A program made the translations under genes and the position numbers. A DNA stretch of 56,720 nt from the NCBI GenBank assembly GCA_016281335.1, contig JAEEIK010000034.1:1-56720 (forward strand). The letters run 5' to 3'. Positions 19,179 through 49,511 of this stretch are shown piece after piece. The notes beneath the pieces were generated by a model. The model was not told the origin of the DNA. It searched no databases and saw nothing but the letters and a program-made list of their open reading frames with translations. Origin of the DNA: Lachnospiraceae bacterium. GTDB taxonomy: Bacteria; Bacillota; Clostridia; Lachnospirales; Lachnospiraceae. Positions within the stretch are counted from its first letter, which is position 1. Each line of letters opens with the position of its first letter.

Positions 19179-19227
19179 TCATCAGTCACCTTCGGGTACA
19201 GCTTCCCTCTTTAGAGGGGAGCTTTTT
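19179..19227 (+). repeat. CTCATCAGTCA double-hairpin repeat, copy A (terminator)
   Basis: CTCATCAGTCACC, then AGCTTCCCTC-TTTA-GAGGGGAGCT followed by TTTTTAC. The 10-bp stem at 19200-19223 works as the plus-strand terminator of the short lipoprotein gene. On the minus strand the repeat encodes the last residues of the acyltransferase. Confidence 0.75.
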
Positions 19228-20276
19228 ACTTTTCCGGTAAGTATGGGGAAGAAGCGGTTGATGATCAGGATCAGAGGGATCTCTTCCAGCAGAGTCAGCA
19301 GCAGAGTGAGTATAAAGAAGCACGGTCCGGCCTGATCGCCGCAGATTTTTACGGCCAGCAGCTTAGCGGGACTTAAGAGGTAAAGATCCATATGCGTGAG
19401 CAGTATTATAAGGGAGTTAGCCCCGAGAAAAGCAAAGGGACGGCTGAGCTTCAGCAGGGAAAGGCATCTGGCGAGCAGTATGATCCCGGTGCAGCCGAAA
19501 AAGATCGATAAAAGATAAAGTATGGGGAAGAAACCGTAATATACCATTCCCATGCTGCCGCCTCCGTTGGTGATGGAGATAAGATAGCAGAAACCCAATA
19601 AGAGAAGCGTAAGGGGAAAAGTTATAAAGGCATTAAGTTTCAGCTTCCTGAGTTTGGGAGCGAGATAATAGGCCACTCCGTAAACGATAAGGCAGAGAGG
19701 CAGTCTTGCCACTGCAGATACCAGGCAGCAGAGGAAGAAGGAAGGAATATCATTCTCCGAAGCGGTGGTGGCATACCAGACTATAAGTAAGCTGCCGAAG
19801 CTGTTGATGATAAAGAAAGCTGCGAACACAGCTATTGCAACAAAGAGCTTGAGCAGGCGTTTCAGTTTAAGCCAAAGTGAAAAGAGCAGCTCCGTTACGA
19901 TAAGCGCCGATAAGAACCAGGTCACCGATATGCCGAAGCCGGAAAAGAACAGCGCGAGGCAGCGCAGCAGCTCACCGGTGTCAAAGCCTCCGGTCTTGGC
20001 ATAGGCAACGAAGAGACTCATCAGAGTATCTATAAATGAAAAGCAGAGGTAGGGGATAAAGAGTCTCTTTAAGCGGGACTTAAGCGTTTCAGCTGTCTTG
20101 AGTTTATCCCCGGCAAAAGCTGCAGAGAGCACAAAGAAAAGCGGCACCTGAAAAGAGGACATAAAGAAAAAAGCATTGCCTTCATCGATGCCGGCATGCT
20201 GAAGTATTACCGCAAATATGGCAAAGGCTTTTGCCGTATCCGGTTCCGGAAATCTTTTTTTGATATTTTCACCCAT
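19182..20276 (-). CDS. Acyltransferase family 3 membrane protein
   Basis: A 364-aa protein with about ten membrane helices. The N-terminal pattern PDTAKAFAIFAVILQHAG, with the conserved His in helix 1, and the following SSFQVPLFFVLSAAFAG and RLKRLFIPYL mark the Acyl_transf_3 family, which O-acylates cell-wall or exported sugars using acyl-CoA. The start at 20276 fits the family N-terminus, but no ribosome-binding site is seen; TATAAT lies 7 nt before the ATG, so the mRNA seems leaderless. The C-terminal tail SSPLKREAVPEGD is encoded by the intergenic repeat at 19179-19227, so the original end of the protein was probably replaced. Confidence 0.85.
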   Translation of the reverse strand: MGENIKKRFPEPDTAKAFAIFAVILQHAGIDEGNAFFFMSSFQVPLFFVLSAAFAGDKLKTAETLKSRLKRLFIPYLCFSFIDTLMSLFVAYAKTGGFDTGELLRCLALFFSGFGISVTWFLSALIVTELLFSLWLKLKRLLKLFVAIAVFAAFFIINSFGSLLIVWYATTASENDIPSFFLCCLVSAVARLPLCLIVYGVAYYLAPKLRKLKLNAFITFPLTLLLLGFCYLISITNGGGSMGMVYYGFFPILYLLSIFFGCTGIILLARCLSLLKLSRPFAFLGANSLIILLTHMDLYLLSPAKLLAVKICGDQAGPCFFILTLLLTLLEEIPLILIINRFFPILTGKVKSSPLKREAVPEGD

Positions 20277-20381: not shown

Positions 20382-23300
20382 ATGAAAACATCAAAGATAA
20401 TAAGCGTGACTATACTAAGTCTTATAATAAATCTCGCAGGTAAGGCTGTTGCCAGCAGTTTTAACCTGCCGTTCTGGCTTGATTCTTTCGGGACCGTTTT
20501 TACTGCATATCTGCTGGGACCTGTACCGGGAGCAGCCGTGGGGCTCACCACCAATCTTATATACGGGGTGATCGCTTCTACTTCGACGGAGATGATCTAT
20601 TGCATCATAAATATGAGCATAGGTATTGCGGTAGGTATCTGTGCCCGTAAGAAAATGATGGAGACCATCTTCGGAGCTATGTGTGTTTCGGTCATAGTGA
20701 CACTTGTCTCGGTAATACTTTCTTTCCCGCTTAACATGATCTTTGCGGGGGGCAGAACCGGTAATTATTTCGGAGACGGCGTGACGGATTTCCTGATAAG
20801 TAATCATATTCCGCCGGTAATAAGCTGTATTGTCGGCGAGTTTTATATCGATTTTGTTGACAAACTGCTGACCATGGCGGTTCTTTTTGCTGTTATCAGA
20901 TTGAGCAGGACCATCAGAAACAAAAGGGCTGCTGCGGCTCTGTTACTTCCTTTTGTATTGATCTATGCCTTCGCATCCCTGCCTTTGTCGGTAAAGGCAG
21001 AAGAAGATGAGGATGAAGACTTCAATTTCTATTCTTATACCCAGACCGTGTATTCCAGTGATAACGGCCTTCCCTGCGGGGAAGCGAATGACGTGGTCCA
21101 GACCAATGACGGTATATTGTGGATAGGCACCTATGCAGGTCTGTACAGGTATAACGGCAGTGATTTTAAATGGATGAGCGAGTTTGACTCCGTTAAGAAT
21201 GTCAACTGTCTGTATGTGGATATTGAAGGCAGGCTGTGGATCGGAACCAATGATAACGGCCTGACCATCAGCATAGGTGAAAACGTATCCAACGTGGTGG
21301 ATATGACAGCGGGACTTCCGTCTAATTCCGTGCGCAGCATTACAAGCGGAACCGACGGCCTGTATTATGTGGGTACTTCGGATGCGCTGCAGATAATACG
21401 TTTAAGCGGCGGACTGACCCTTTTGGACCCTATCCCCGAGATACTTTATGCTCACAGCATCGCTGCGGATGAATCGGGCTATGTGGCGGCGGTAACGGCT
21501 AAAGGAGAACTCTTTGTTCTGAAAAACGGAAAGATAGTCTCCGGACCGTATATGAACAGCGGCGAGGAGATATATACCTGCTGTACTTTCGGAAGTAACG
21601 GCTTGCTCTATGTAGGCACTTCGGGCATGGATATATATTCTTTTATCATATTTGAGGGTGAGCTCAGCAAGAAGGAAGTTCATCATTGTCCGGGTCTGAG
21701 ACAGATAAACAGCGTCAGCTTTGATAACAATAATAGTCTTTTTGCATGTTCGGACAGCGGTGTCGGATTCTTTGACGGAAAGGGGCATTTCAAAAGGGTA
21801 AATACACCGACGTTCAGCAACTCTATTGATAACATGACCGTTGATTACCAGGGCAATTACTGGTTTACTTCATCGAGACTGGGACTTTTACGCGTATCCA
21901 AGGCGGCATTTACCGATATATACGGGCTTGCCGGGACAGAGCGTAAGGTTGCCAATACAGTTACCAGATGGAATGATCTTCTTTATATCGGGACTGATAC
22001 GGGACTTGATGTATTATCGGCGGACAATTATAACCGTGTTTCGAATCGCTTTGCCCAGTCACTGGGAGAAGTTAGGGTGCGCTGCGCTTATGTTGATTCA
22101 AAAAACAAACTTTGGCTCTGTACCTACGGTAAGGGACTTGTCTGTGTAGAGGACAGCGGAAAAGAGGAGTATTTCAGTCAGACAGCCGGTTTTACCGACA
22201 GGGTCAGGGCGATAGCCGAGAATGTCGACGGCTCTCTCATAGCTTCGGGTGATAACGGCGTGGCACTGATCAAAAACGGACGCATTGAAAAGGTGCTTGA
22301 GTATGGCAGTGATTTCTCCTCTGCCATGATACTGTCAATACTCTGTGAAGAGGACGGTACCGTGCTGCTTGGAAGTGACGGTGACGGCATAGTGGTGCTT
22401 AAAGACGGTAAAGTCACAAAGAAGATCGGCATGGCAGACGGCTTAAGTTCAGAGGTGATCCTGCGCATAACAGCGGCTACGGACGGCTCGGGCCGGTTTA
22501 TCGTGACCAGCAACGGTCTGTGTTTTATGGATAAGGAGGGGAACATCCGCATATTTAAAAACTTCCCCTATTATAATAATTATGACATGGTGGTCAATAA
22601 AGACGGCAAGGCTTTTGTACTTGGCAGCGCAGGCATTTATATCGCGAATGAAGCAGAGATGATAGAAGATGAATACAACTATCCCAGCGAGCTTCTGGAT
22701 TCCAGAAGAGGACTCAATACTGCACTCACGGCGAATTCCTGGAATTATGTGAGTGCAGAGGGCGAACTCTTCCTTTCCTGCGACAAGGGCATCTATCTTC
22801 TGGATATGGATGATTACGGATCGGAACAGAGATCATACAGAATGAAGCTTTCTTCCGCAGTGATCGACGGCGTAAATCATCAGGTAGAGAGAGGTATGGA
22901 ATTTAAGGTAGAGAGTGATGCATCGAGGATAGAACTGTATCCGGAGATACTGAATTATACGGTTGAGGATCCGAGCGTGATCTATATGCTGGAGGGCTTT
23001 GATACAGAGCCGAAGATAGTGAAAGCCAGCGAGATATCAAATGTTGTCTATACCAATCTGCCTTCCGGCAGCTATGTTTTCCATATGGCGATACTGGACA
23101 ATGACAAGAACGTGATAGAGGAGAGCAAGTATCCCATTGTCAAGATGATGAAGGTTTATGACAAGCCCTGGTTCAAGATATATATGCTGACTGTGGCAGC
23201 CATAGCTATTGCCTGGTTTACCTGGTTCATAGCAAGGACACAGATACAGAGGACGCTGAACTTCCAGAAAAAGGAACTGGAATTTGCGAGAAAACAGCTG

Positions 23301-23918
23301 GAGATGGGTAATGAGACCATTCTGGCTATAGCAAAGACCGTCGATGCCAAAGACGAGAATACCAGCCAGCATTCCCAGAGAGTATCGGAGTATTCCGTAT
23401 TAATTGCCAAAGAACTGGGCTTTACAAAGGATGAATGCGAGAATATCAGAAAAGCTGCACTGCTTCACGACATAGGAAAGATAAGCATCCCGGACAAGAT
23501 ACTCAACAAGCCTGCGAAGCTTGATGATGCGGAGTATTCGATAATGAAGACCCATGTGGAGAACGGAGCGGAGATACTCAAGGACTTTACACTGGTAGAT
23601 CATGTTGTGGAAGGCGCATTGTATCATCATGAAAGATATGACGGTTCAGGATACACCCATGGACTTAAAGGGGCGGATATACCTCTTTACGGCAGGATCA
23701 TAGGTGTTGCCGATGCTTTCGATGCCATGACACAGAACCGTGTGTACAGAAAGAGCCTGAGTATGGATAAAGTGATCGGGGAGCTCAAGGCCGGCCGGGG
23801 TACGCAGTTTGATCCCGAGATAGCGGATATAATGCTGAGACTGGTCGAAGAGGGGAAGGTCAGACCGGATTCCGGCGGAACCGGCATAGCAGATGAAAAG
23901 GACGGTGAAAAAGAATGA
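20382..23918 (+). CDS. ECF-S-like / beta-propeller / HD-GYP multidomain receptor
   Basis: A 1178-aa protein. Residues 1 to about 190 form a polytopic membrane domain like ECF-transporter S components (LPFWLDSFGTVFTAYLLG, PVPGAAVGLTTNLIYGV). Next is a membrane helix ending SLPLSVKAEEDEDED. About 225-800 is a two-component-regulator propeller (ILWIGTYAGLYRYNG, LWIGTNDNGL and other blades), followed by a Y_Y_Y-like domain (about 840-915). A transmembrane helix (about 929-951) and a coiled linker lead to a cytoplasmic HD-GYP domain with LLHDIGKISIPDKIL (His near 1029) and HHERYDGSGYTHGLKG, where GYP reads GYT. HD-GYP enzymes hydrolyse c-di-GMP. ATG 20382 is chosen for AAGGGG and the promoter. It overlaps the BMP gene by 4 bp. 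Confidence 0.87.
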   Translation: MKTSKIISVTILSLIINLAGKAVASSFNLPFWLDSFGTVFTAYLLGPVPGAAVGLTTNLIYGVIASTSTEMIYCIINMSIGIAVGICARKKMMETIFGAMCVSVIVTLVSVILSFPLNMIFAGGRTGNYFGDGVTDFLISNHIPPVISCIVGEFYIDFVDKLLTMAVLFAVIRLSRTIRNKRAAAALLLPFVLIYAFASLPLSVKAEEDEDEDFNFYSYTQTVYSSDNGLPCGEANDVVQTNDGILWIGTYAGLYRYNGSDFKWMSEFDSVKNVNCLYVDIEGRLWIGTNDNGLTISIGENVSNVVDMTAGLPSNSVRSITSGTDGLYYVGTSDALQIIRLSGGLTLLDPIPEILYAHSIAADESGYVAAVTAKGELFVLKNGKIVSGPYMNSGEEIYTCCTFGSNGLLYVGTSGMDIYSFIIFEGELSKKEVHHCPGLRQINSVSFDNNNSLFACSDSGVGFFDGKGHFKRVNTPTFSNSIDNMTVDYQGNYWFTSSRLGLLRVSKAAFTDIYGLAGTERKVANTVTRWNDLLYIGTDTGLDVLSADNYNRVSNRFAQSLGEVRVRCAYVDSKNKLWLCTYGKGLVCVEDSGKEEYFSQTAGFTDRVRAIAENVDGSLIASGDNGVALIKNGRIEKVLEYGSDFSSAMILSILCEEDGTVLLGSDGDGIVVLKDGKVTKKIGMADGLSSEVILRITAATDGSGRFIVTSNGLCFMDKEGNIRIFKNFPYYNNYDMVVNKDGKAFVLGSAGIYIANEAEMIEDEYNYPSELLDSRRGLNTALTANSWNYVSAEGELFLSCDKGIYLLDMDDYGSEQRSYRMKLSSAVIDGVNHQVERGMEFKVESDASRIELYPEILNYTVEDPSVIYMLEGFDTEPKIVKASEISNVVYTNLPSGSYVFHMAILDNDKNVIEESKYPIVKMMKVYDKPWFKIYMLTVAAIAIAWFTWFIARTQIQRTLNFQKKELEFARKQLEMGNETILAIAKTVDAKDENTSQHSQRVSEYSVLIAKELGFTKDECENIRKAALLHDIGKISIPDKILNKPAKLDDAEYSIMKTHVENGAEILKDFTLVDHVVEGALYHHERYDGSGYTHGLKGADIPLYGRIIGVADAFDAMTQNRVYRKSLSMDKVIGELKAGRGTQFDPEIADIMLRLVEEGKVRPDSGGTGIADEKDGEKE

Positions 23919-25114
23919 AAAAGATCAATACCGTTTCAATCATAGTCTGCGCGCTTGCTTTTATACTTTCACTGATAGTGTTCTCCTTATTCAGAACGAC
24001 GGATGACGGAACAAAGGTCATAAAGGTCGGTTTCGTATACGACGGTGACGAGAGCGCGCCCTATACATATAACTTTATCAGGGCCCAGAAAGCCGTGGCA
24101 GAGGAGTATGGAGATAAGGTAAAGATAGCAGTAAAGAGCAATATTACCGATGAGTATGCCGAGGCTGCGATCAGGGATCTGGTTTCGGAAGGTTGCGACC
24201 TTATCTTCACTACCAGTTACGGTTACGGAGAAGCTGCCAAAAAACTCGCTCAGGAAAACCCCGGGGTACAGTTCTGCCAGGCGACCTGCAGCAATGCAAA
24301 TACCGAGCCTTTTTGCGATAATTACCATACCTTTATGGGTGAAATATACAGCGGCAGATACATTGCAGGACTTGCGGCAGGGCTGAAACTAAAGGAACTC
24401 ATTGATTCGGGACGTATCACGGCAGATATGGCAAAGATAGGTTATGTGGCGGCCTATCCCTATGCAGAGGTTATCTCGGGTTATACGGCCTTTCTTCTCG
24501 GCGTCAGGAAGCAGGTTCCGGAAGCAACAATGACCGTTATTTATACTAATACCTGGGGAGAGTATATACTGGAAAAGAATACGGCAGAACGGCTGATAAA
24601 AGAAGGCTGTGTTGTGATATCCCAGCATTCCGATACCATAGGCCCGGCAGTGGCCTGTGAGGAAGCAAAGGTCTCGCACCCTGTATTCCATGTCGGTTAT
24701 AATGACAGTATGCTTGATGTTGCACCTACAACATCCCTGATCAGTTCCAGGATCAACTGGACACCGTATATTACCGCCGCCGTGGGAGCGGTGCTTAAGG
24801 ATAAGAAAATCGAAAAGTGCGTTGATGCCAATGTATACGGTAATGACTGTGCTGCGGGCTTTGACAGGGACTGGGTACAGATGGTCGAATTGAATTCCTA
24901 TATAGCGGCAGAAGGTACGGAGGAACTGATAGAGAAGGCAACAGATGATTTTAACAAGGGTCGCATTACGGTATTCAAGGGTGCTTATACCGGAGTGGAT
25001 CCTTTTGACCCGAATGATACCATCGATCTGAGCAAAGGATATGTGGAGAACGAAAAGCAGTCTGCGCCTTCATTCCACTGGGTGCTTAATGACGTTATAA
25101 CCGTGGAAGAATAA
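23915..25114 (+). CDS. BMP/PnrA-family ligand-binding protein
   Basis: A 399-aa protein with an N-terminal transmembrane helix (about 7-25, no lipobox Cys) and a BMP-type binding fold. Features are VIKVGFVYDGDESAPYTYNFI, IFTTSYGYGEAAKKLA, NYHTFMGEIYSGRYIAGLAAG and GYVAAYPYAEVISGYTAF. Characterised members such as PnrA/TmpC and Med bind nucleosides or similar small molecules. The gene overlaps the HD-GYP receptor by 4 bp and no transporter genes follow, so I infer that it presents its ligand to the receptor rather than to a permease. The ligand is not readable; purine nucleosides are the default guess from the family. Confidence 0.85.
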   Translation: MKKINTVSIIVCALAFILSLIVFSLFRTTDDGTKVIKVGFVYDGDESAPYTYNFIRAQKAVAEEYGDKVKIAVKSNITDEYAEAAIRDLVSEGCDLIFTTSYGYGEAAKKLAQENPGVQFCQATCSNANTEPFCDNYHTFMGEIYSGRYIAGLAAGLKLKELIDSGRITADMAKIGYVAAYPYAEVISGYTAFLLGVRKQVPEATMTVIYTNTWGEYILEKNTAERLIKEGCVVISQHSDTIGPAVACEEAKVSHPVFHVGYNDSMLDVAPTTSLISSRINWTPYITAAVGAVLKDKKIEKCVDANVYGNDCAAGFDRDWVQMVELNSYIAAEGTEELIEKATDDFNKGRITVFKGAYTGVDPFDPNDTIDLSKGYVENEKQSAPSFHWVLNDVITVEE

Positions 25115-35805: not shown

Positions 35806-38805
35806 ATGAAAAACAGACTCAAACGCTGGCTGGCATTGATGATGTGCGCAGTGATGATGGCGGGCATGGCACCGGAGACGATAATTGCCGCTGAAGAAGC
35901 AACGGAAGAGGTAAGAGAAGAGGCGGGCTTATTTCCTGAGTCCATCGATCTGGAGCCGGGAGACTGGTTACCTGATCAGATAGAAGCGGGAAAGCAGCTG
36001 TTAAGCCCGAATGAGTCTTCTAATCCGACGGGGGTTGACGGGTTATATTGGCGCCTTGAGAATATTTATGAGGATGAGGATTATACTACATGTTTAAGGT
36101 TGCTGGAACTTATCGATATTGACGGAGAAGGGTATAACTGCCACGAGGCTTTTGCGAAAAACCGTACCTATTATTTGGATTTTTATGTCTACTCATTCGG
36201 AGAACCGGAAGATGGCGCTATTCCCATGTTTGATTACACCGGAAACGTAAGGATACGCGGGAATACCCTGAAAAAAGTAGAAGGCATGGAAGGCCACTTT
36301 TTTCTGGAGATGGCTACAGGCACAGTGGTTCGGCATAAGCTGACAGTATCCATGGGAGATCACGGAACACTTCCGGAATCCGTAAAAGACGGTATCATGT
36401 TCGAAGAGGGGGCAGATATCAGTATTGCTCTTGGAGCTAAATTTTCAGATATAACAGCTGCGGTAAACGCCGTAAACGGATATTACGTGACCGGATGGAG
36501 TGACGGGAAAACGACCGTTACAGAGCTTAAAGGTTATGATATTACGAAAGCTGTGGCTGATGTTACATTAACGGCTCAATGGGCTCCAATAAGTGTTGTG
36601 ACCGGCGCGGATTTTCGCTTCAACCTGCCGTATTACGGAATGAGTGAGAATGATATCAATAGCAAAGGATTATTTAAACGAAGCGAAACACAATTAAGTT
36701 GTCGCTGTTACGGGATTTATACGGATAAGGATCTGGAAACTCCGGTTGACGATGATCATCAGCTTGAAGAAGGGAAAGTTTATTATGCGAGGATCCAAGT
36801 TGATCCAGTAAAAGGCTGGGTTATCGATAAAGACTCATTACCTGACGTTACCGTAAACGGAGAAAGAGTTGAGTTATATTATTGTGTAGTAGAAAATGAT
36901 GCAACCCAAGAACAGTATGAATTCTGGTGTTTTGACTGGTCATTTACTCCGGAAGAAAAAAAGACGCAGTATTATGACCTGGTGCTGAATTATAATTATC
37001 CGGGTGAGCCGGAATATAAACATAGGATAAGCGGCATACCGGAAGGCACGGATATTGATGCGGAAGGCGATTTTTCACTCCTGAAGGCCCTCAGATACAA
37101 AGTCACAGAGGGCGCCGGTATCACATATGACGAATATCTGGCGTTGCTTGAAGAACACAAGGATGATGAAAATTTCCCGGCAAATCAGGAATATGTCAGC
37201 TTACGGCAGGTTAACGGTCATTACTGCAGGGAGCAGATAAAAACCAGTCCCTCCTTTGATGATTATGAGTCTTACCGGGATGATACGTTTAATACAGAGA
37301 TTGATAAAGATCTGAACTTGTATTATTTCTGGGCGCAGGAACTTAAAAGCGCAGAGATCGAGAGCATAGTGGCGCCCGTCTGCGGTCAGAAACAGGAGGA
37401 TTACAATGGCGGTTTAGGTCCGGGGACAGGCGGTATCACTTACGAGACCGGTATCAGGGGATATACATGGAAATTTGTCCTGTCCGATAACAAAGCCGGA
37501 AGGCTGGATGAAGATACTGTATTTGAAGGAGATAAAGAGTATTATATCCTGTTAGACGGATTTACCTTTGACGAAGGCGAGGCAGGTTACAGATTTTTCG
37601 ATAAATATATGACGATGGACGTTAAGCTCAGCTATAACGGTACGGAGTACGCGCAAGATGAAAACTATGATTACCTTATCCCGGTAAAAGCAGTGCATGA
37701 TATGTCGGCAGAAGCTGCGACAGAAAAAGAAAATGAGGTGGCTGCAAAATGTGAAACGGCGGGCTCCTATGACGAAGTATTGAAATATGAGTGTACCTAT
37801 TGTCATAAGACAATCGAGACGGTCACGCATAAGACGGTAGATGCGCTGGACCATGACTGGGGTGAGTGGACCGTAAGTAAGGAGGCTACGGAAACCGAAG
37901 ATGGTGAAGAGGTAAGAGTATGTAAGAGGGATCCGGATCATAAAGAAAGCAGGGTGATACCAAAGAAGGAAAAGCAGGAAGAACAGAAGGACGACGACAA
38001 TAAAGATGATGATAAGAAAGAAGACGACAGGAAGGATGATGATAAAAAAGACGATGATAAGAAGGACGACGATAAGAAAGAAGAAATAATACCCGATATA
38101 CAAAAGCCCATAACTGTTTCAGAGAACATAATGTTAAAGTTTAATGAAGCGGATATCACCATAGAAGCGGATGTCACTTATCCCAAGGCTGTGAGCTGGA
38201 CCGGTAACAAGATAACAAAGGAACAGCTGGCGGCACTTTCCAAGGATGGCGTTATCGCAAGAGTGAAGATATCCGGACTGGAAAAGGCTATAGAGGGAAT
38301 GAACAGGGAGGCGGACACAGGAAAACTGTTCAACTTAAGCTATGTGATAGACAAGGAGAAAAAAGTCAATTCCAAAGGAAGCTTTTATGTGAAGCTCAAG
38401 CTGAATAACAAGGAGGTTAAAAAAGCCAAGATAAAAGGAAAGGATAAAAAGGCTCTCGGAAATATCGTAAAGGATCTTAACAGGCAGTTTAAAGATAATC
38501 CTTACAGCTTTGACATAGTGCCGATAGAACTGAAGGACGCCGAGAGCGTAACCATCAAGGCGAAGCTCAAGAAGGACGAGCTGCAGTTAAATGATGACGG
38601 AAGCATCAAGGGATTTAAGAGCCTGAAGATCAAGGTAAGGATACCGGGTAAAAAGGCTGCCAAGACCTACAGCTTCAGCGCCAAGAAAGCACTTAAGTGT
38701 TTTACGATAACAGTAAGCGATAAGCAGAATAAAAAAGCGGAGGTTACGGCACTGGCCGGACAGAACTTCGCAGGAACGAGAAGCGGAGCAGATATCACAA
38801 AATGA
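35806..38805 (+). CDS. Large secreted surface protein with InlB-type repeat and basic C-terminal domain
   Basis: A 999-aa protein with a signal peptide (KRWLALMMCAVMMAGMAPE, cleavage near IIAAE). An InlB_B-type repeat (about 180-265, TVSMGDHGTLPESVKDGIMF ... LTAQWAP) is followed by a region shared with the 42317 protein (from about 394, NYNYPGEPEYKHRISGIPEG). Next are a CxxC-containing module (KYECTYCHKTIETVTHK, DHDWGEWTVSKEAT), an Asp/Lys linker (about 725-760) and a Lys-rich domain of about 230 residues (KAVSWTGNKITKEQL to the end). No LPXTG is present; the basic C-terminal domain may hold it to the wall. AAAGGGGG precedes the ATG. It is a probable adhesin or matrix protein; its ligand is unknown. 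Confidence 0.83.
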   Translation: MKNRLKRWLALMMCAVMMAGMAPETIIAAEEATEEVREEAGLFPESIDLEPGDWLPDQIEAGKQLLSPNESSNPTGVDGLYWRLENIYEDEDYTTCLRLLELIDIDGEGYNCHEAFAKNRTYYLDFYVYSFGEPEDGAIPMFDYTGNVRIRGNTLKKVEGMEGHFFLEMATGTVVRHKLTVSMGDHGTLPESVKDGIMFEEGADISIALGAKFSDITAAVNAVNGYYVTGWSDGKTTVTELKGYDITKAVADVTLTAQWAPISVVTGADFRFNLPYYGMSENDINSKGLFKRSETQLSCRCYGIYTDKDLETPVDDDHQLEEGKVYYARIQVDPVKGWVIDKDSLPDVTVNGERVELYYCVVENDATQEQYEFWCFDWSFTPEEKKTQYYDLVLNYNYPGEPEYKHRISGIPEGTDIDAEGDFSLLKALRYKVTEGAGITYDEYLALLEEHKDDENFPANQEYVSLRQVNGHYCREQIKTSPSFDDYESYRDDTFNTEIDKDLNLYYFWAQELKSAEIESIVAPVCGQKQEDYNGGLGPGTGGITYETGIRGYTWKFVLSDNKAGRLDEDTVFEGDKEYYILLDGFTFDEGEAGYRFFDKYMTMDVKLSYNGTEYAQDENYDYLIPVKAVHDMSAEAATEKENEVAAKCETAGSYDEVLKYECTYCHKTIETVTHKTVDALDHDWGEWTVSKEATETEDGEEVRVCKRDPDHKESRVIPKKEKQEEQKDDDNKDDDKKEDDRKDDDKKDDDKKDDDKKEEIIPDIQKPITVSENIMLKFNEADITIEADVTYPKAVSWTGNKITKEQLAALSKDGVIARVKISGLEKAIEGMNREADTGKLFNLSYVIDKEKKVNSKGSFYVKLKLNNKEVKKAKIKGKDKKALGNIVKDLNRQFKDNPYSFDIVPIELKDAESVTIKAKLKKDELQLNDDGSIKGFKSLKIKVRIPGKKAAKTYSFSAKKALKCFTITVSDKQNKKAEVTALAGQNFAGTRSGADITK
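37979..38085 (+). repeat. Asp/Lys repeat linker (in-frame)
   Basis: Runs of codons for DDDKK-type units encode an acidic/basic linker between the CxxC module and the C-terminal domain. Copies are imperfect at the DNA level. Confidence 0.8.
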
Positions 38806-42316: not shown

Positions 42317-45300
42317 ATGCATAACAGGATGAAGAGACAATTGAGAAGATGGCTGGCAATGTTCATGTGCGCAGTGATGATCACAGGCATGATGCCGGAA
42401 GCGGTACTGAAGGCGCATGCGGAGGAAGAGAGCGTGCAGTCTGAAGCTGATACGGCAAAAGAGACGACTGTGCCGGAGGATGAGGCCGGAACTGATGCGA
42501 TCGTAGAAGAAGCGGGAAATGATAAAGGAACGCCGGCAGCATATGTAAAAATGATAAATCTGGCAAACCCGGCAGGAGAGGCGGTCACCTTGAATTCAGG
42601 AGACAGCATGGAGGGCTATGCTTCATTTAATAATGGCGTGCTGACTCTTAAACAAGGTGTCGGGGACACTATTCCTAAGAGCGGTCTAAATAATAGTTGT
42701 GCTATAGCCATATATGCGCCAGGTGATCTTATAATTGAACTTGAATGTGGGAGCGCTGATGAACCTGCTGTTTTTGCAGGAAAAGACAGTCAATATTCGC
42801 TTTGCGCAGACGGAAATATTACAATAAGAAATGCAGGCGGAAAAAGCGGATATGCTTTATTTCAGGCTCAGAATAGGAATAACCTGTCATATTTGCAAGG
42901 AATTGAATGCAGGGGCAAACTGACCATAGAAGAACAGGACGGAGGAGAAGTGGCGGTAAGTGTTGTCGCTACCCCCCTCGAAGGCGCAAAGCCTCAATAC
43001 AATTTTGGAGTATATGCACAGGATGGATGCGAAATAAAAAGAGGGGCTGAGTTATCCGTATCAGGCGGAAACGCATCACAAGGCAGCGCGGGATTATATT
43101 TGGGCAATAACGGTCATTTAACTATAGGAGAAGGAGCTAAATTGACGGCTGCAGCCGGCAATGTAAGCAGCGCTTATGAAAATCAGATCAGTGCAGGCAT
43201 TTATGCCTATAACACTCTGGAAGCGGATATTGATGATGGGGCCGAGGTGATAACACAGCACGGAACCGTTTCAAACGGAAATAAGGTCGGGGACGTATAT
43301 GTTAAGGATGAGGAGATCAATTATACTCTCGGCGTTACACCGCTTAATGCTTTTTATGTTTATACGGATCAATATGAAAGCTCGGCATATATCAATATAG
43401 GAGACGCGGTTGAGCAGGGGATGCTGCCGGATGATCTTAAGACATACCTTGAGGGGCTTGAAGCAGCTTATGAAAGATCATACAGCATGGGCAGTTCTTT
43501 CAGGGTGATCAATACTTTAGCCGGTATCTATGAGCTGCCTGAAGCAATAAGCGAAAAATATGACATAGGATATATTACCGAAGAAGATTATCAGGCTGTT
43601 GCTGCCGGAACAAAGACGGCAGCTGAGGTGATCAGCTATGATACGGCTGATAAGCTCTGCATGAACAGGGATAAAGGCTGCCAGCTGTGTTTCAGGGAAA
43701 AGTGGTCAGCAGTCGAAAAAGTGAAATTCAGCGAAGACGGTAATGAGGTAAAATATGATAATAAGAAGCCTTTATTACTGAAAGTCGGAGAGGCGGCAGT
43801 ACTGGATGTGGAGATAGAACCTGACGGCGCACTGCAGGAGATCGGATTTGCGGCATTTTCCCTGACAGATGTGAATAATACTGCTGCAGATATAGCAAAA
43901 GGTCCTGACAGCAGCAGGCTTGAGCTTACTTATGAGAATAACAGCTTAACACTCAACGGTAAAGAAATCGGATATGCTGCAGCTGCCGCATTTCCGAAAA
44001 AAGCTCTTGATGCATATGCAAAGGGGGAAATGACTGTTGCGGAACTGGTAAGTAAAAGAATAGCCGGTTCTTCGATCTGTGTTCAGCTATATGCAGAAAA
44101 GAAGTATACGCTCCATGCCAACGGAGGCAGGTTTATCCCGGCAGAGAATCTTAAGAGTTATGCGACAGAAGGCAAAATTTCCTTTGATGATGTTTATGAA
44201 ACGGGAACGGAGACCATATCGTTCATGGCACCGGACAGCTGTACCCGTGTGCAGTGGGGACAGATAATGTCTGATCGTCTTAAGGCCATGGACTATTACA
44301 TGAATGAAAATATATCTGCTTTTGCATACGGCAGCGCTATTGACGGTACCATAATACTTATGACTCATTCCGGAGATGTTACGGATGCGGACAGTTCCTT
44401 TATTAAACTTGATGATAAGCATAAGCCGATTGACTCTCCTATGCCGGAGAATGTTACTGATTTCTATATACCATGGAAAGCGACGGAAAACACTTCGGCA
44501 CGCTTTGTGACCGACGGCGGCAGCATTGACTGGAAAGCTGATGTTCAGGTGACTGCTGATGGTCAGGATTATCTGTACAGCGGTGCTGAAAACAGCAGAT
44601 TCATTTTCCCGGAAGCAGTCAGAGAAGGATACTTCTTTATCGGATGGAAAACACAGGTGGGCAAAAAGGATATCCTCCGTTTTGCAGGTGATGCGGGGGT
44701 CCTGACGAATACCCAATATACCGCTTTGTGGCAGACTGAGATAAAAAGGATAGATCTGACCTCAAATCTTCCGGCAGCTCTTTCGGTCGGAGAAGCGGGG
44801 GTATACAACATTCAGGCGGTAACGAACGGTATAAATGCATATTTCCAGGGATTCACAGATGCGTTTGCCGGAGACGAGGTGGATCGTATAGAGGCGGATC
44901 ATTCATATTATGTATGTATCAGCGTTCAGTATGATCCGGGTGAATACTATATTGATCGTGAAAGTGTCGAGATATATCTGGGCGATGAAAAACTCAAGGC
45001 TATACCCGGCGGCGGCGGACCGGGTGTCAATGAAATACTGGCGTTTAAAAAGTATACCGTAGGAACGCCTAAAACTCACAAGCTGACTTTTGACCTGCAG
45101 GGAACAGGCGAGTTGCCTGATTTTGCAAAGAACGGTTTTGTTTTTGAAGAAGGAGAAAACCTGCGTTCCTTAATGACTGAAACACAGCTGAATGAACTCC
45201 TGTACATGAGATATACGGGCGCTGATGGGAAGTATTACGGCTTCTGGTATCCTGACCGTGCATGCAGGGAAGATGAGCGTATAGGGACAGGTAATGACCC

Positions 45301-48034
45301 GCTTCGCGGAAAGAAAGAAGATGTAACCTTTTATGCCGGATGGACTAAGATCAGTTATATACGTTCAGAGACTCTGGAAGTTGCCGTTCCGCAGGATGGC
45401 ATGAAAACTGACGGTGAAGGCAAATTTGATACAGACTGGATGAACGGCAGTAATGACGAGATAAGCTGGTCCGGAGAAGATTTCTGGTATGACAGCGGAG
45501 CGAGTGAGCCGGTAAAAGCAACTGATTCCTTTAAGGCCGGAAAAAAATACTATGCAAGGATATCTTTTTGGTGCCATGATGGTTTTGAATTAGATCCGGA
45601 CAATCTGCCGCGGATCATAGTGAACGGAAATAATGCCGTGGTCAGTATCCGTAAAAAGGTATCAGGTTACAATCAAACTGTTTATTATGCAGTATTTGAG
45701 TTTATACCGGCTGCGCAGAGCGGGATCGATCTGACCCTGGATTATAATTATCCGGACGGGACAGAGTACAGCCATACCATCAGCGGCATACCGGCAGGTA
45801 CGAAGCTTAGCGGAACCGGTTTCAGACTCAGGGATGCCCTGTTTATCGGTGATATGACCTGGGAAGAGTTCTGCACACTTAAGCAGGAATATACGGAAAC
45901 GAATAATGAGAATACATTCTACGCAGCGCATGAAAAGATCCTGCCGGCTGAAAATACAGGATACAGATGGAGAGGCATAGCTTCGAAACGGAAGTATTCA
46001 AGCTATAATGATGCTTGCGGTGACAGCATGAGCCTTGCGTCTTTGGCCTTGGTAAATGATACAACCCTGTATATAAGCTGGGATGAAGAATTAAAGCTCA
46101 TTCCGTTAAATGGCATCAATGTGCCTGAATGTCGTATGTGTGTAGATGAGTATTATGAGCTGTCAGATTACGGAGTGGATTTTGAGGGCGGAAGCAGCGT
46201 GAGCAGCGCAGGCTTTTACTGGGTTGATGTGACAGACCATGATAACAGATTTGATGATGGATATGTGTTTAACGGAGGAAGTACGGCCGCGCTTCATCTG
46301 GAACTGAGACTTCAGAATGGTATCTATTTTGACAGGTTTATAACGGAAGATACGAAGATACGCTATAACGGCAACGATTATGCCTGCGAGAATTTTACGG
46401 GTGACGATATGGAGTTTTATATTCCCGTGACTATCGGGCATGTTCTTCCGAAAGATGCAACTGTAGAAAAGAGCAATGTGGTCGAAGCGAGCTGCACAGC
46501 AGGAGGTTCTTATGATGAAGTAAGAAGCTATAAGTGTACGGCCTGCGGTACTGATGTGGAGAATGAGCTGATCCACTGCCATGTTCCGGCTCTGGGGCAT
46601 GAGCTGATAAGGCATATGAAGGTGGAGCCGACACTGGGTAAAGCCGGTAATATCACATATTGGGAATGTGACAGATGTAAGAAACTTTTTGCAGATGAGA
46701 ATGGAAAGAACGAGATAACAAAGGAAGATACAGTCATACCCGTGCTTGAAGAGACAGAGATCGATCCGGACCATCAGCATGCGCTTATCAGGCATAAAAG
46801 GGTTGAACCTACTGCTGCGACAGCAGGTAATATTGAGTATTGGGAATGCATTGATTGCCACAGATTCTATTCTGATGCGGAAGGAAAAAATCAGATAAGT
46901 CTGAAGGACACAGTGCTTGCGGCAAAAGGAGAACCTGCACCCGATCCGGACCCCAATCCGGACCCCAATCCGAATCCTGATCCGAATCCGAATACGGATA
47001 CCGATGCGGAACCGGAGGATACACCGGAGGAAGCACCCGAGGAGGCGCCGGAGGCTACGGGAGTTAGCTTAAGTGAAAACAAGATCGAAATAAAGATCGG
47101 CGAGAGTAAAGCGCTTAAAGCTGTCGTTGCTCCCGAGAATGCAAAAGATAAGTCACTCTCATGGGTAAGTGATAATGAGAACGCAGTTACCGTCGATAAG
47201 GACGGTAAGATCACGGGCGTATGGGCAGGAACAGCGAAGATAACGGTGACCACGGTGAACGGCAAGAGCGCCGTATGCGAAGTTACAGTGCTGCCTGCAT
47301 TTAACAATGATAATGAGGAAACGATGAAGATGTCACCGGAGGATATTAAGAACTATGTCGTGCCTCAGAGAATAGGCAAGCCGATACCCGAGTCCAAGCC
47401 CGTGAAGATCGGTGACAAAGAGGTGAAACTCAATGTATCCGTAAGCTACTGCAATGCGGTGACCTACACCGGCAAAGCAATTAAGGCCCAGGATGTGCTG
47501 GATATCAATTACGACTTCTCCGACATACTGAAGGCAGCAGGAGCTGAAGGCAAGGATCAGGATAAGATGTTTAAGTTGAGCTACATCAATAAGAAGAACA
47601 AGAATGCCGGTCATGAAGCATCTTTCTATGCAAAGATCAGCCTTAAGAAGACAGCAAAGAAAGATTGCGGCCTTTCGGATGCTCAGGTGAAGGACCTCAA
47701 GAAGCTTATCAAGGCCGAGAACAGCGTGATGAAGAAGAATCCCTGCAAGTATACGATCAATAAGGCCTCTCTTACGGATCTTGCGGAGATAAAGCTGCAC
47801 GCTAAGCTGACGAAAGACGGAAAGCTGAATCTGATCACCAAGGGCAAGAAAGCAGGAAATATCAAAGGCTTCAAGAGTGTAACGGTAAAAGTTAATGCTT
47901 CCGATCAGAAAGCAAAGAAACTCTCTGCAAAGGCAGGTTACAGCTATGAGGTGACGGATGCCGAAAAGTGCAGGGTGAAGATCAAAGGAAATACCAACTA
48001 TACCGGTTTTGTAACGGTGACGGCGGAGAAGTAA
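42317..48034 (+). CDS. Giant secreted multidomain surface protein (BIG2, InlB-type repeats)
   Basis: A 1905-aa protein with a signal peptide (RRWLAMFMCAVMITGMMPE, cleavage near KAHAEE). In order: a Gly/Ala-rich repeat region resembling a beta-helix (about 60-345, ILKQGVGD, LTIGEGAKLTAAAGN); several InlB_B-like repeats (about 590-830 and 915-1015, ARFVTDGGSIDW, GFWYPDRACREDE); and the region shared with the 35806 protein (from about 1139, DYNYPDGTEYSHTISG). Then come CxxC modules (YKCTACG, WECDRCKK, WECIDCHR), a PDPNPDPN linker (about 1540-1578), a BIG2 Ig-like domain (about 1579-1660, GVSLSENKIEIKIGESKALK) and the conserved Lys-rich C-terminal domain (from about 1675). No sortase motif. Probably an adhesin or biofilm component. 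Confidence 0.83.
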   Translation: MHNRMKRQLRRWLAMFMCAVMITGMMPEAVLKAHAEEESVQSEADTAKETTVPEDEAGTDAIVEEAGNDKGTPAAYVKMINLANPAGEAVTLNSGDSMEGYASFNNGVLTLKQGVGDTIPKSGLNNSCAIAIYAPGDLIIELECGSADEPAVFAGKDSQYSLCADGNITIRNAGGKSGYALFQAQNRNNLSYLQGIECRGKLTIEEQDGGEVAVSVVATPLEGAKPQYNFGVYAQDGCEIKRGAELSVSGGNASQGSAGLYLGNNGHLTIGEGAKLTAAAGNVSSAYENQISAGIYAYNTLEADIDDGAEVITQHGTVSNGNKVGDVYVKDEEINYTLGVTPLNAFYVYTDQYESSAYINIGDAVEQGMLPDDLKTYLEGLEAAYERSYSMGSSFRVINTLAGIYELPEAISEKYDIGYITEEDYQAVAAGTKTAAEVISYDTADKLCMNRDKGCQLCFREKWSAVEKVKFSEDGNEVKYDNKKPLLLKVGEAAVLDVEIEPDGALQEIGFAAFSLTDVNNTAADIAKGPDSSRLELTYENNSLTLNGKEIGYAAAAAFPKKALDAYAKGEMTVAELVSKRIAGSSICVQLYAEKKYTLHANGGRFIPAENLKSYATEGKISFDDVYETGTETISFMAPDSCTRVQWGQIMSDRLKAMDYYMNENISAFAYGSAIDGTIILMTHSGDVTDADSSFIKLDDKHKPIDSPMPENVTDFYIPWKATENTSARFVTDGGSIDWKADVQVTADGQDYLYSGAENSRFIFPEAVREGYFFIGWKTQVGKKDILRFAGDAGVLTNTQYTALWQTEIKRIDLTSNLPAALSVGEAGVYNIQAVTNGINAYFQGFTDAFAGDEVDRIEADHSYYVCISVQYDPGEYYIDRESVEIYLGDEKLKAIPGGGGPGVNEILAFKKYTVGTPKTHKLTFDLQGTGELPDFAKNGFVFEEGENLRSLMTETQLNELLYMRYTGADGKYYGFWYPDRACREDERIGTGNDPLRGKKEDVTFYAGWTKISYIRSETLEVAVPQDGMKTDGEGKFDTDWMNGSNDEISWSGEDFWYDSGASEPVKATDSFKAGKKYYARISFWCHDGFELDPDNLPRIIVNGNNAVVSIRKKVSGYNQTVYYAVFEFIPAAQSGIDLTLDYNYPDGTEYSHTISGIPAGTKLSGTGFRLRDALFIGDMTWEEFCTLKQEYTETNNENTFYAAHEKILPAENTGYRWRGIASKRKYSSYNDACGDSMSLASLALVNDTTLYISWDEELKLIPLNGINVPECRMCVDEYYELSDYGVDFEGGSSVSSAGFYWVDVTDHDNRFDDGYVFNGGSTAALHLELRLQNGIYFDRFITEDTKIRYNGNDYACENFTGDDMEFYIPVTIGHVLPKDATVEKSNVVEASCTAGGSYDEVRSYKCTACGTDVENELIHCHVPALGHELIRHMKVEPTLGKAGNITYWECDRCKKLFADENGKNEITKEDTVIPVLEETEIDPDHQHALIRHKRVEPTAATAGNIEYWECIDCHRFYSDAEGKNQISLKDTVLAAKGEPAPDPDPNPDPNPNPDPNPNTDTDAEPEDTPEEAPEEAPEATGVSLSENKIEIKIGESKALKAVVAPENAKDKSLSWVSDNENAVTVDKDGKITGVWAGTAKITVTTVNGKSAVCEVTVLPAFNNDNEETMKMSPEDIKNYVVPQRIGKPIPESKPVKIGDKEVKLNVSVSYCNAVTYTGKAIKAQDVLDINYDFSDILKAAGAEGKDQDKMFKLSYINKKNKNAGHEASFYAKISLKKTAKKDCGLSDAQVKDLKKLIKAENSVMKKNPCKYTINKASLTDLAEIKLHAKLTKDGKLNLITKGKKAGNIKGFKSVTVKVNASDQKAKKLSAKAGYSYEVTDAEKCRVKIKGNTNYTGFVTVTAEK
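46939..47010 (+). repeat. Asp-Pro-Asn repeat linker (in-frame)
   Basis: Short repeats of GATCCGAATCCG type encode DPNPDPN units. They form an extended, probably wall-spanning linker before the BIG2 domain. Confidence 0.8.
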
Positions 48035-48094: not shown

Positions 48095-48121
48095 GCCACG
48101 GATACTGTCCGTGGCTTTTTT
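48095..48121 (+). terminator. Terminator of the giant surface-protein gene
   Basis: GCCACGGA (48095-48102) pairs with TCCGTGGC (48108-48115), 5-nt loop, then TTTTTT. The T run overlaps the stop of the convergent GGDEF gene. Confidence 0.9.
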
Positions 48122-49511
48122 AGCGGTATCTGCGATCCGGATGGGTCGCATAGTATTCACGCTTATCGGTATACATGCCTTTGTCGGCGGAGCGCATGGC
48201 CTGACGGATGTCTTCACCGATCTGCACTACGTGGGTGCCGATGGCAAAATGGAGTCCGTCAACCCTGGCGGCTTCTTCTCTTATGCGGGCTTCTCTTTTC
48301 TTTACTTCGGCTTCATCCATGCCCATGGCGATGACCATGAATTCGTCGCCGCCGGCGCGGTATACGTCGCTGTCGGGGAAAGTCTCTTTTAAGATTGCAG
48401 CGGCTTTTTTCAGAACATTGTCTCCTGCGCTGTGCCCGCTTTCGTCATTAACCTGTTTAAGACCGTTTAAGTCGGCAAAGAGCACGGCATAAGGATAACT
48501 GATCTCCATCTCGCCGTTTATGATATCGTCCACAAGGGCATTCATGGAGTTGCGGTTCTTTGCCTCAGTAAGCATATCCATGGAACTGAGTATCTCCAGC
48601 TTGCTTAAGAGCTGGTAATTGGCAATCTCTGCCGCAATAAAGAAGGTGGAGAGTTCAAGGGTCTCTTTGATCTTAACTGTATTTTCAACATTGAAGTTGA
48701 TCGACCACATAAAGCCGAGGGTTTCATTGTTGTACTTGAGCGGGAAGATAACTATGCTGTGCGCGCCGGCCTCTGTGAGAGACTTATGCCACCCGGGATT
48801 AACGCTTTTCAGCCATTCCATATCGCCTTCGTCTTTGATGATCAGACAGGTGCTGTCGCCGATGGTGGAAGCCCAGGTCTTGCATATATCATAGAAGTCC
48901 TCATTAAGATAGGTATCCATAGGGAGCAGTCCGCAGTTCGGCTTGATAGCCTCACAGAGACTGGAGCAGCGGCGCTTTTTATCATTGATCAAAAGGATGC
49001 AGCAGTGATCCGAATCGCAGATCTGTCTTATATCATCTATGACATCATTGAAAGTCTGCTGTTTATTGTCTGAACCCCGCAGCTTTATGCAGGTCTGAAG
49101 GACCGCAGCTGAGGTATCGGCATCCAGGCTTGCCCTTTGCTCCGAATCCGCTTCCGGCGTCACCTCATAAGAATAGATGCAGTAACCGGTATCTTCCTTA
49201 TCAGAGGTAAGAGGCAGCAGAAACATATTGAGCCAGAGTTTAAACTGGGGAAGTTCAACATAGGTATGCAGGGGCTGGCCGAGTACGGCACAGCGGTAGC
49301 AGAAATCTTCAAAATTCTTGTTTTCGGGGAAATACTCGGCATAAGGAGAATCCGGTATAAAAGCTTTATGCATGGTTGAAAGCATATCATCGCAGTGAGC
49401 CTTGTTCCCGTCAGCTATGCGTATGTTACCGTAGCTTCCGTCCGGAAACTTCTCAACTGACATTATACAGGTCTTGGTCTTATAGGCAGAAAGAATATTC
49501 TCAAAATTCAT
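48120..49511 (-). CDS. GGDEF diguanylate cyclase with PAS- and GAF-like sensor region
   Basis: A 463-aa soluble protein. The N-terminal part (about 1-115) looks PAS-like; the middle (about 130-290, TFNDVIDDIRQICDSDHCCI, GAHSIVIFPLKYNNETLGF) looks like a GAF domain. The C-terminal GGDEF domain (about 300-463) has DMLTEAKNRNSM, the active-site AGGDEF and the usual ADKGMY helix. The RxxD inhibitory site is not evident. It makes c-di-GMP and is the natural counterpart of the HD-GYP receptor at 20382-23918. GGAGGG precedes the ATG. The gene is monocistronic and ends against the terminator of the giant protein gene. Confidence 0.88.
   Translation of the reverse strand: MNFENILSAYKTKTCIMSVEKFPDGSYGNIRIADGNKAHCDDMLSTMHKAFIPDSPYAEYFPENKNFEDFCYRCAVLGQPLHTYVELPQFKLWLNMFLLPLTSDKEDTGYCIYSYEVTPEADSEQRASLDADTSAAVLQTCIKLRGSDNKQQTFNDVIDDIRQICDSDHCCILLINDKKRRCSSLCEAIKPNCGLLPMDTYLNEDFYDICKTWASTIGDSTCLIIKDEGDMEWLKSVNPGWHKSLTEAGAHSIVIFPLKYNNETLGFMWSINFNVENTVKIKETLELSTFFIAAEIANYQLLSKLEILSSMDMLTEAKNRNSMNALVDDIINGEMEISYPYAVLFADLNGLKQVNDESGHSAGDNVLKKAAAILKETFPDSDVYRAGGDEFMVIAMGMDEAEVKKREARIREEAARVDGLHFAIGTHVVQIGEDIRQAMRSADKGMYTDKREYYATHPDRRYR

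Follow-up and report, generated by a model that had tools for sequence, protein, structure and literature searches.

The window, a stretch of 56,720 nucleotides from a Lachnospiraceae bacterium (positions 1 to 56,720 of contig JAEEIK010000034.1, assembly GCA_016281335.1), contains two overlapping plus-strand genes at positions 20382 to 25114. These genes probably encode a two-gene membrane receptor in which a BMP/PnrA-type binding protein, when occupied by a purine, gates a cytoplasmic HD-GYP phosphodiesterase domain through an extracellular propeller and in which an ECF-S domain acts as a second, non-transporting sensor. The receptor gene (20382..23918) encodes 1,178 amino acids and the BMP gene (23915..25114) encodes 399 amino acids (PF02608, E = 5.6e-31); the stop codon of the former and the start codon of the latter overlap by 4 bp in an ATGA (23915..23918). 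The receptor start was assigned to the ATG at 20382; an in-frame ATG at 20196 would run into a divergent gene (19182-20276). A preliminary description of this DNA had reported the same architecture, coordinates and 4-bp stop/start overlap, all of which proved correct on checking of the open reading frames (ORFs), Pfam and NCBIfam searches and an AlphaFold model.

The receptor begins with the ECF-S domain (residues 1-178; 20382..20915), followed by an internal signal-peptide-like segment (residues 179-206; 20916..20999). An extracellular double beta-propeller extends over approximately residues 215-812 (21024..22817; limits taken from the model), with a Reg_prop match at an E value of 1.5e-18 and, in Foldseek, a best match to the periplasmic domain of BT4663 (4a2m, E = 7.1e-33). 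A Y_Y_Y domain follows at approximately residues 813-921 (22818..23144), with a PF07495 match at 865-910 (E = 3e-7) and strands at 820-921 in the model. A transmembrane helix at approximately residues 925-989 (23154..23348) runs on as a signalling helix, modelled as continuous from 929 to 989, and leads to the predicted cytoplasmic HD-GYP domain (residues 985-1150, 23334..23831; HD_5 at 985-1147, E = 2.9e-40). The model, computed from 55 sequences, had a mean predicted local distance difference test score (pLDDT) of 85.9 and a predicted template modelling score of 0.64, and pLDDT fell below 50 only in segments 181-184, 186-212 and 1165-1178. The likely topology is one of six transmembrane helices with cytoplasmic ends, a seventh running outward, the propeller outside, an eighth running inward and the HD-GYP domain inside. 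Neither a histidine kinase/receiver output nor a GGDEF-EAL output was present in the receptor, in which HD-GYP was the only output domain detected by Pfam.

The association of the two genes was examined from both sides. Relatives of the BMP protein were encoded at 480 loci, of which the 80 top-ranking ones (55-79% identity) were retrieved. A receptor, uncut or cut by the end of a contig, lay directly upstream in 79 of these 80. All three receptor domains were present in 69 (65 uncut and 4 cut N-terminally by the contig start) and part of the receptor was present in 10, 9 of which ran off the contig start. At L191 (1-3345) the receptor N terminus was missing at the contig start and the gene was also split by one in-frame stop, while the one BMP gene with no upstream receptor sequence (L129) was itself at a contig edge. 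From the receptor side, a full BMP gene was directly downstream of 19 of 22 same-clade receptors, comprising two from the window's own genome and 20 retrieved from other genomes as the closest with a long ORF; G151 (L105), with an open frame of 278 amino acids close to the end of a contig, was omitted. Among the 20 fetched receptors, 17 had a full BMP gene downstream and one (L073) had a BMP gene cut by the contig end. The exact 4-bp overlap recurred in 31 of 77 other upstream pairs, and the spacing varied from 57 bp between the genes to 155 bp of overlap, although these counts are affected by a longest-ORF rule that called some BMP starts too early. No third gene recurred across the 78 module loci inspected by eye, save for neighbours common to close relatives. 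These results indicated that the adjacency noted in the preliminary description is conserved among homologues.

The module carried host labels of Lachnospiraceae, other Clostridia and Treponema. As it was found in a Treponema bryantii B25 record (L202), whose title is not marked as a metagenome-assembled genome, and was recovered repeatedly, an assembly artefact is unlikely, although most loci are metagenome assembled. Its prevalence was patchy: module-type BMP genes were detected at an E value of ≤1e-130 in 3 of 398 genomes of a phylum sample (own genome included), and BMP matches below 1e-150 occurred in 6 of 295 genomes of an order sample. The window's own genome has a second pair on contig C146 (P0003 and P0004), with the same order and overlap and with 49% and 50% identity to the window proteins. 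The C146-type clade (C146, L080, L081, L085 and L086) was monophyletic with a support of 1.0 in both the receptor and the BMP trees, and the pair was therefore probably duplicated together. The four Treponema-labelled loci were not monophyletic in the receptor tree or the BMP tree, pointing to transfer or to bins with wrong labels.

The BMP protein was modelled with a pLDDT of 94.1 and an N-terminal helix at residues 2-27, which we read as a predicted membrane anchor without a lipobox. A lipobox was found in none of 19 module BMPs, and the pattern occurred in 3 of 78 (6 of the 19 being among the 78). ATP-binding cassette (ABC) genes did not recur as neighbours of the BMP gene at the 78 loci, again by eye. 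Foldseek matches to the BMP model included 6pi5 (guanine), 3s99 (modelled adenine) and PnrA, with guanosine, adenosine and inosine complexes further down. In AtzT (6pi5), guanine lies between Tyr45 and Trp194 and is bonded by Ser97, Glu165, Asn218 and Asn220 (PMC6834077). These positions aligned to Y50, W214, S101, E185, H238 and D240 of the window BMP (P0002), and among 83 module BMPs (77 distinct sequences, not dereplicated) the window residue was kept in 82, 83, 77, 82, 82 and 83, respectively. All six residues were also identical in 12 of 13 transport-type relatives, the other (L230) having F at position 50.

Fifteen transport-type BMP loci were viewed (L212-L220, L222 and L227-L231; L221, for which no BMP ORF was obtained, was left out). 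By eye, genes for an ABC ATPase and permeases adjoined the BMP gene in all 15, and a lipobox was present in 14 of the 15 proteins; for L229 the called start was too early for the scan. A purine riboswitch was located directly upstream of the BMP gene in three of nine such loci scanned (L219, L227 and L231), and its position ahead of these BMP-ABC transporters argues for a purine. Xanthine phosphoribosyltransferase genes adjoined the transport-type BMP gene in L220 and L227. In 2 of 82 loci viewed by eye, the module BMP gene shared 4 bp with a nucleoside deaminase gene; that of L225 (8660-9616) was of the adenosine type and that of L130 (6234-6626) of the cytidine type. As a separate observation, the ATPase and one permease of L219, L227 and L231 (typed in L227) best matched the NCBIfam models named 'putative B6 ABC transporter', below their cut-offs.

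Evidence on the ECF-S domain was sought at the sequence level. The NCBIfam model NF045596 matched receptor residues 11-173 with 70 bits (E = 1.7e-19), below its curated cut-off of 180 bits, a cut-off that was also missed by three S-components from ECF operons (86-102 bits). Pfam gave no match for residues 1-206, and none for 5TMR_LYT (PF07694) anywhere in the receptor, at an E value of ≤1. The identity between the receptor domain and its 10 closest stand-alone homologues was 36-41%, and the model contained S-component-like helices at residues 3-178 (fit by eye). These data indicated that, as the preliminary description had proposed, the N-terminal 178 residues are akin to ECF-S proteins, and that the kinship in sequence is real. 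By eye, EcfT and EcfA genes adjoined all 10 stand-alone homologues, and a nucleoside-phosphorylase-like gene adjoined 6 of the 10 (L106, L107, L108, L111, L112 and L115). The neighbours in L106, L107 and L115, and in the more distant L120, resembled uridine or purine nucleoside phosphorylases below cut-offs, and a phosphopentomutase gene was near the L115 locus. In their own right, the loci L106-L115 are candidates for a nucleoside ECF transporter of the CD3073-type family. The earlier guess of a nucleoside-like ligand thus gained independent support from the AtzT-site residues, the riboswitches and the phosphorylase neighbours, and for the BMP protein it may be narrowed to a purine.

Conservation of the ECF-S domain was compared between stand-alone proteins and a set of 91 receptors, from which contig-cut receptors were excluded. 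This set contained 85 distinct sequences (79 after an 80% identity filter; the L068 and L084 records duplicate L124 and L138, respectively) and included four more distant receptors without BMP (L092, which also has a receiver domain, L096, L097 and L100). Nineteen positions were at least 90% conserved in both 11 stand-alone S-components and the 91 receptors: N17, G20, L29, P30, W32, D34, G37, T38, P47, G50, G54, N58, Y73, G85, G124, N128, G131, D160 and K161. A different pattern was observed in helix 1. A literal AXXXA motif was absent from this helix but was also absent from the stand-alone proteins, making it a weak test of lost docking to EcfT, and it was replaced by position-wise counts of small residues. 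Positions A5, A12 and G15 had a small residue in all 10 stand-alone proteins but in only 6, 24 and 17, respectively, of the 91 receptors. This pattern has the same sense as that in receptors with an S-component fold whose EcfT docking face has been lost, as described in PMC11109136. EcfT and EcfA genes did not recur beside the module at the 78 loci viewed by eye.

In most of the 60 (of 91) receptors viewed, the linker between the ECF-S domain and the propeller showed a run of basic residues, a hydrophobic core and a motif that ends in alanine, this motif being VKA in the window receptor, with a candidate signal-peptidase I site at A206/E207. A lenient signal-peptidase-type motif was found in 89 of the 91 receptors. 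Using a strict [AV]xA pattern within 14 residues of the core, a match was obtained in 65 of the 79 non-redundant receptors compared to 26.9 expected from shuffled windows, a test based on this simple pattern and not on a trained predictor. The control region after the second transmembrane helix gave 1 of 79 (2.3 expected), and the linkers of more distant ECF-S-propeller receptors gave 13 of 17 (6.9 expected). The linker therefore resembles a signal peptide placed within the protein, with a putative signal-peptidase I site facing outward, and because the motif is conserved the ECF-S domain may be released. Cleavage within a polyprotein by a bacterial signal peptidase occurs with cytochrome b/c1 of Bradyrhizobium; a literature search on this point listed only virus papers. 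The preliminary description of one polypeptide accordingly stands for the single ORF, but the product may not stay one. L105 (3-1598, minus strand) was considered as an unfused form and rejected, as its frame is broken by one in-frame stop within the hydrophobic stretch of the linker. A more elaborate arrangement can be put forward tentatively, and with some doubt, in which a cleaved polyprotein would yield a three-part sensor (a freed S-component, derived from a nucleoside transporter and persisting as its own membrane subunit next to the receptor, the propeller/HD-GYP part and the BMP protein) that reports nucleoside at the membrane and purine outside the cell to cyclic di-GMP (c-di-GMP).

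Ten residues of the HD-GYP domain were invariant in all 91 receptors (H997, H1029, D1030, K1033, H1058, H1082, H1083, D1111, R1120 and Y1122), and the metal-binding His/Asp set was complete in an alignment to PmGH (4mcw). The position of PmGH Glu185 was Asn in the window receptor, making a two-metal site likelier than a three-metal site. The own genome had 42 GGDEF matches, 41 of them above cut-off, and c-di-GMP signalling is therefore plausible in this organism. In the C146 locus (L025, 1087-15545), an ORF with a GGDEF match (ORF at L025 14904-15545; match at C146:15090-15536) starts 40 bases after the pair.

Taken together, these features suggest a mechanism in which the anchored BMP protein would bind an extracellular purine (a nucleoside, or a nucleobase, for example xanthine or guanine) and, when loaded, would dock on the double propeller/Y_Y_Y ectodomain of the receptor. 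The resulting change would travel along the single transmembrane helix and its unbroken cytoplasmic extension to reach HD-GYP, whose hydrolysis of c-di-GMP would be altered; whether a purine raises or lowers this hydrolysis cannot be read off the sequence. The ECF-S domain would descend from the S-component of a nucleoside transporter, retaining residues in common with the transporters while small residues have mostly disappeared from one face of helix 1. It would now act as an additional sensor subunit that does not transport, and signal peptidase may detach it from the receptor. The overall interpretation in the preliminary description, in which BMP binding or the ECF-S domain itself alters c-di-GMP hydrolysis, was upheld in part: kinship to ECF-S, adjacency to BMP and a nucleoside-like ligand were supported, while the picture of one lasting polypeptide and of an unusual architecture required correction.

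Several observations weigh against this mechanism. RfuA, which binds riboflavin, and PnrA complexes with thymidine or uridine were also among the Foldseek matches of the BMP model, and with ligands this mixed the BMP ligand cannot be deduced from fold alone. H238 and D240 replace Asn218 and Asn220 of AtzT and the C146-clade BMPs lack the S101-Y102 pair, so that the ligand may differ from guanine; the C146-clade proteins may bind something other than the ligand of the window BMP. No purine riboswitch was detected in the own genome or at six of the nine transport-type BMP loci scanned. An Rfam scan of 9 loci, out of 17 with a stand-alone ECF-S gene, yielded RNase P, flavin mononucleotide and molybdenum matches only, with no purine or nucleoside riboswitch at these 9. 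Evidence from ECF-S points to nucleosides and that from BMP to a purine base, which are not one molecule. The L077 and L079 receptors have no neighbouring BMP gene, with no close BMP elsewhere in their genomes (none in G009 and one match in G248 at E = 2e-5), and BMP is therefore not indispensable. The GYP motif was GYT in the window receptor, GY being invariant and P third in 33 of 91 receptors. Finally, pair-distance correlations with BMP were 0.75 for ECF-S, 0.76 for the propeller and 0.72 for HD-GYP, and these about equal values single out no contact domain.

Other arrangements were weighed against the same data. The 19 positions conserved in both stand-alone proteins and receptors, together with the two same-clade receptors without BMP, would suit a receptor in which ECF-S is the principal ligand site, supplied with captured ligand by BMP, and the propeller is a scaffold. 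We consider this unlikely, as the signal-peptidase motif between ECF-S and the propeller would uncouple them, the shared positions may be structural, and three own-genome propeller proteins with kinase-like C termini (P0005, P0006 and P0008; by eye) carry no ECF-S. A cleaved ECF-S part could instead be an ordinary S-component working on the shared ECF module of the cell, with the fusion merely equalising amounts; its closest relatives are transporter S-components, the cleavage motif is conserved and the own genome has an EcfT-like match (C6:8275-8892; 96.7 bits, model cut-off 111.8), but the rarity of small residues at A5, A12 and G15, itself a weak test given that AXXXA is absent from the stand-alone proteins, makes this improbable. 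A merely shared regulon, in which the propeller would detect a glycan like the propellers of the Bacteroides hybrid sensors and BMP would be unrelated to it, would agree with the best structural match being the heparin sensor BT4663 and with a GH10 xylanase-like gene adjoining the C146 copy (by eye), but is hard to reconcile with the recurrent 4-bp overlap, near-universal pairing, co-duplication, lack of a recurring third gene and a BMP without lipobox or ABC partners, and we gave it little credence.

The gating of HD-GYP by an occupied BMP, which we favour, has partial precedents. NspS is a PotD-type binding protein encoded beside mbaA, in a system not known to contain a propeller or ECF-S. 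The present pair has a like layout, with a binding-protein gene adjoining the gene of a predicted membrane c-di-GMP enzyme. According to PMC8967002, occupancy of the Vibrio cholerae binding protein sets the state of the c-di-GMP enzyme in NspS-MbaA; the likeness lies in a periplasmic binding protein that reports its ligand to such a membrane enzyme, as would be the case here, whereas that system has a polyamine ligand and a GGDEF-EAL output instead of HD-GYP. The double propeller with Y_Y_Y of the Bacteroides hybrid sensors BT4663 and BT3049, the top Foldseek matches, is present in the receptor as judged from Pfam, the model and Foldseek, but those sensors have a kinase output. They are not known to have ECF-S or a dedicated binding protein. 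One paper naming both Reg_prop and HD-GYP groups Reg_prop/Y_Y_Y with hybrid kinases. The preliminary description placed propeller/Y_Y_Y receptors mainly in hybrid two-component systems of Bacteroidetes. This placement needs widening, since a Reg_prop/Y_Y_Y sensor part is also in print for GdpX2 and GdpX3 of Xanthomonas oryzae, given as GGDEF proteins in the available text of PMC6637768, which makes no mention of ECF-S or a BMP partner.

The ECF-S part shares sequence kinship and S-component-like helices with the CD3073 family (NF045596) but is fused through a signal-peptide-like helix to a receptor and has mostly lost the small face of helix 1. In the 5TMR receptors an S-component fold also serves sensing, but according to PMC11109136 their kinship is by fold only and their output is directly cytoplasmic, whereas here the kinship is at the level of sequence and an extracellular propeller intervenes. 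The BMP protein shares its fold and most AtzT ligand-contact positions with BMP/PnrA binders (AtzT 6pi5, 3s99, PnrA and BmpD) but differs in having a signal anchor instead of a lipobox, no ABC genes and a dedicated receptor partner. Unusual features are the ECF-S part, a propeller with HD-GYP beneath it, a BMP protein dedicated to the receptor and a cleavage that may occur. Literature searches in one open-licence library listed no publication on a receptor combining ECF-S, propeller and HD-GYP, or on the BMP protein paired with it.

An ECF-S front end with an HD-GYP output, which the preliminary description had called unusual, is not unique. In addition to the C146 paralogue, the own genome has three ORFs of approximately 720 amino acids with ECF-S and HD-GYP but no propeller, their middle part being unassigned (C60, C32 and C97; L027, L028 and L029; Pfam run for two). 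On C60 and C32 the next gene downstream encodes a propeller protein whose C terminus is kinase-like. ECF-S matches at an E value of ≤1e-5 were present in 81 of 250 same-family genomes (own included), mostly as stand-alone frames of ∼190-230 amino acids, frames of ∼700-770 amino acids or receptors of ∼1170-1630 amino acids. Beside 17 more distant ECF-S-propeller receptors (L088-L104), no BMP gene was found (0/17; L098 runs off its contig and has no downstream sequence). Their outputs, typed by BLAST and for five by Pfam, were GGDEF (L091, L101 and L104), HATPase (L095), HD-GYP (L096, L097 and L100), HD-GYP with a receiver (L090, L092, L093 and L099) and kinase with a receiver (L088, L089, L094, L098, L102 and L103). 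There is thus a wider modular family of ECF-S-propeller receptors without BMP and with several outputs, as judged from their sequences.

Other features were observed around the two own-genome pairs. Upstream of the C146 pair are the GH10-like gene and apparent cobalamin biosynthesis genes (by eye). Within the window, Rfam gave no match at gathering scores. A protein of 999 amino acids (35806-38805) had no Pfam match at an E value of ≤1e-5, and Big_2 was the sole Pfam match of a protein of 1,905 amino acids (42317-48034). A GGDEF match (48156-48584, minus strand) lies within an ORF of 463 amino acids (48120-49511), approximately 23 kb from the receptor/BMP pair.

If the proposed mechanism is correct, gut and rumen bacteria would couple the supply of purines outside the cell to a second messenger made from GTP. 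The receptor would also be a case, at the level of sequence, of a transporter part turned sensor, and would provide ligand hints both for an ECF-S family with no substrate in its model name and for BMP proteins that do not serve transport.

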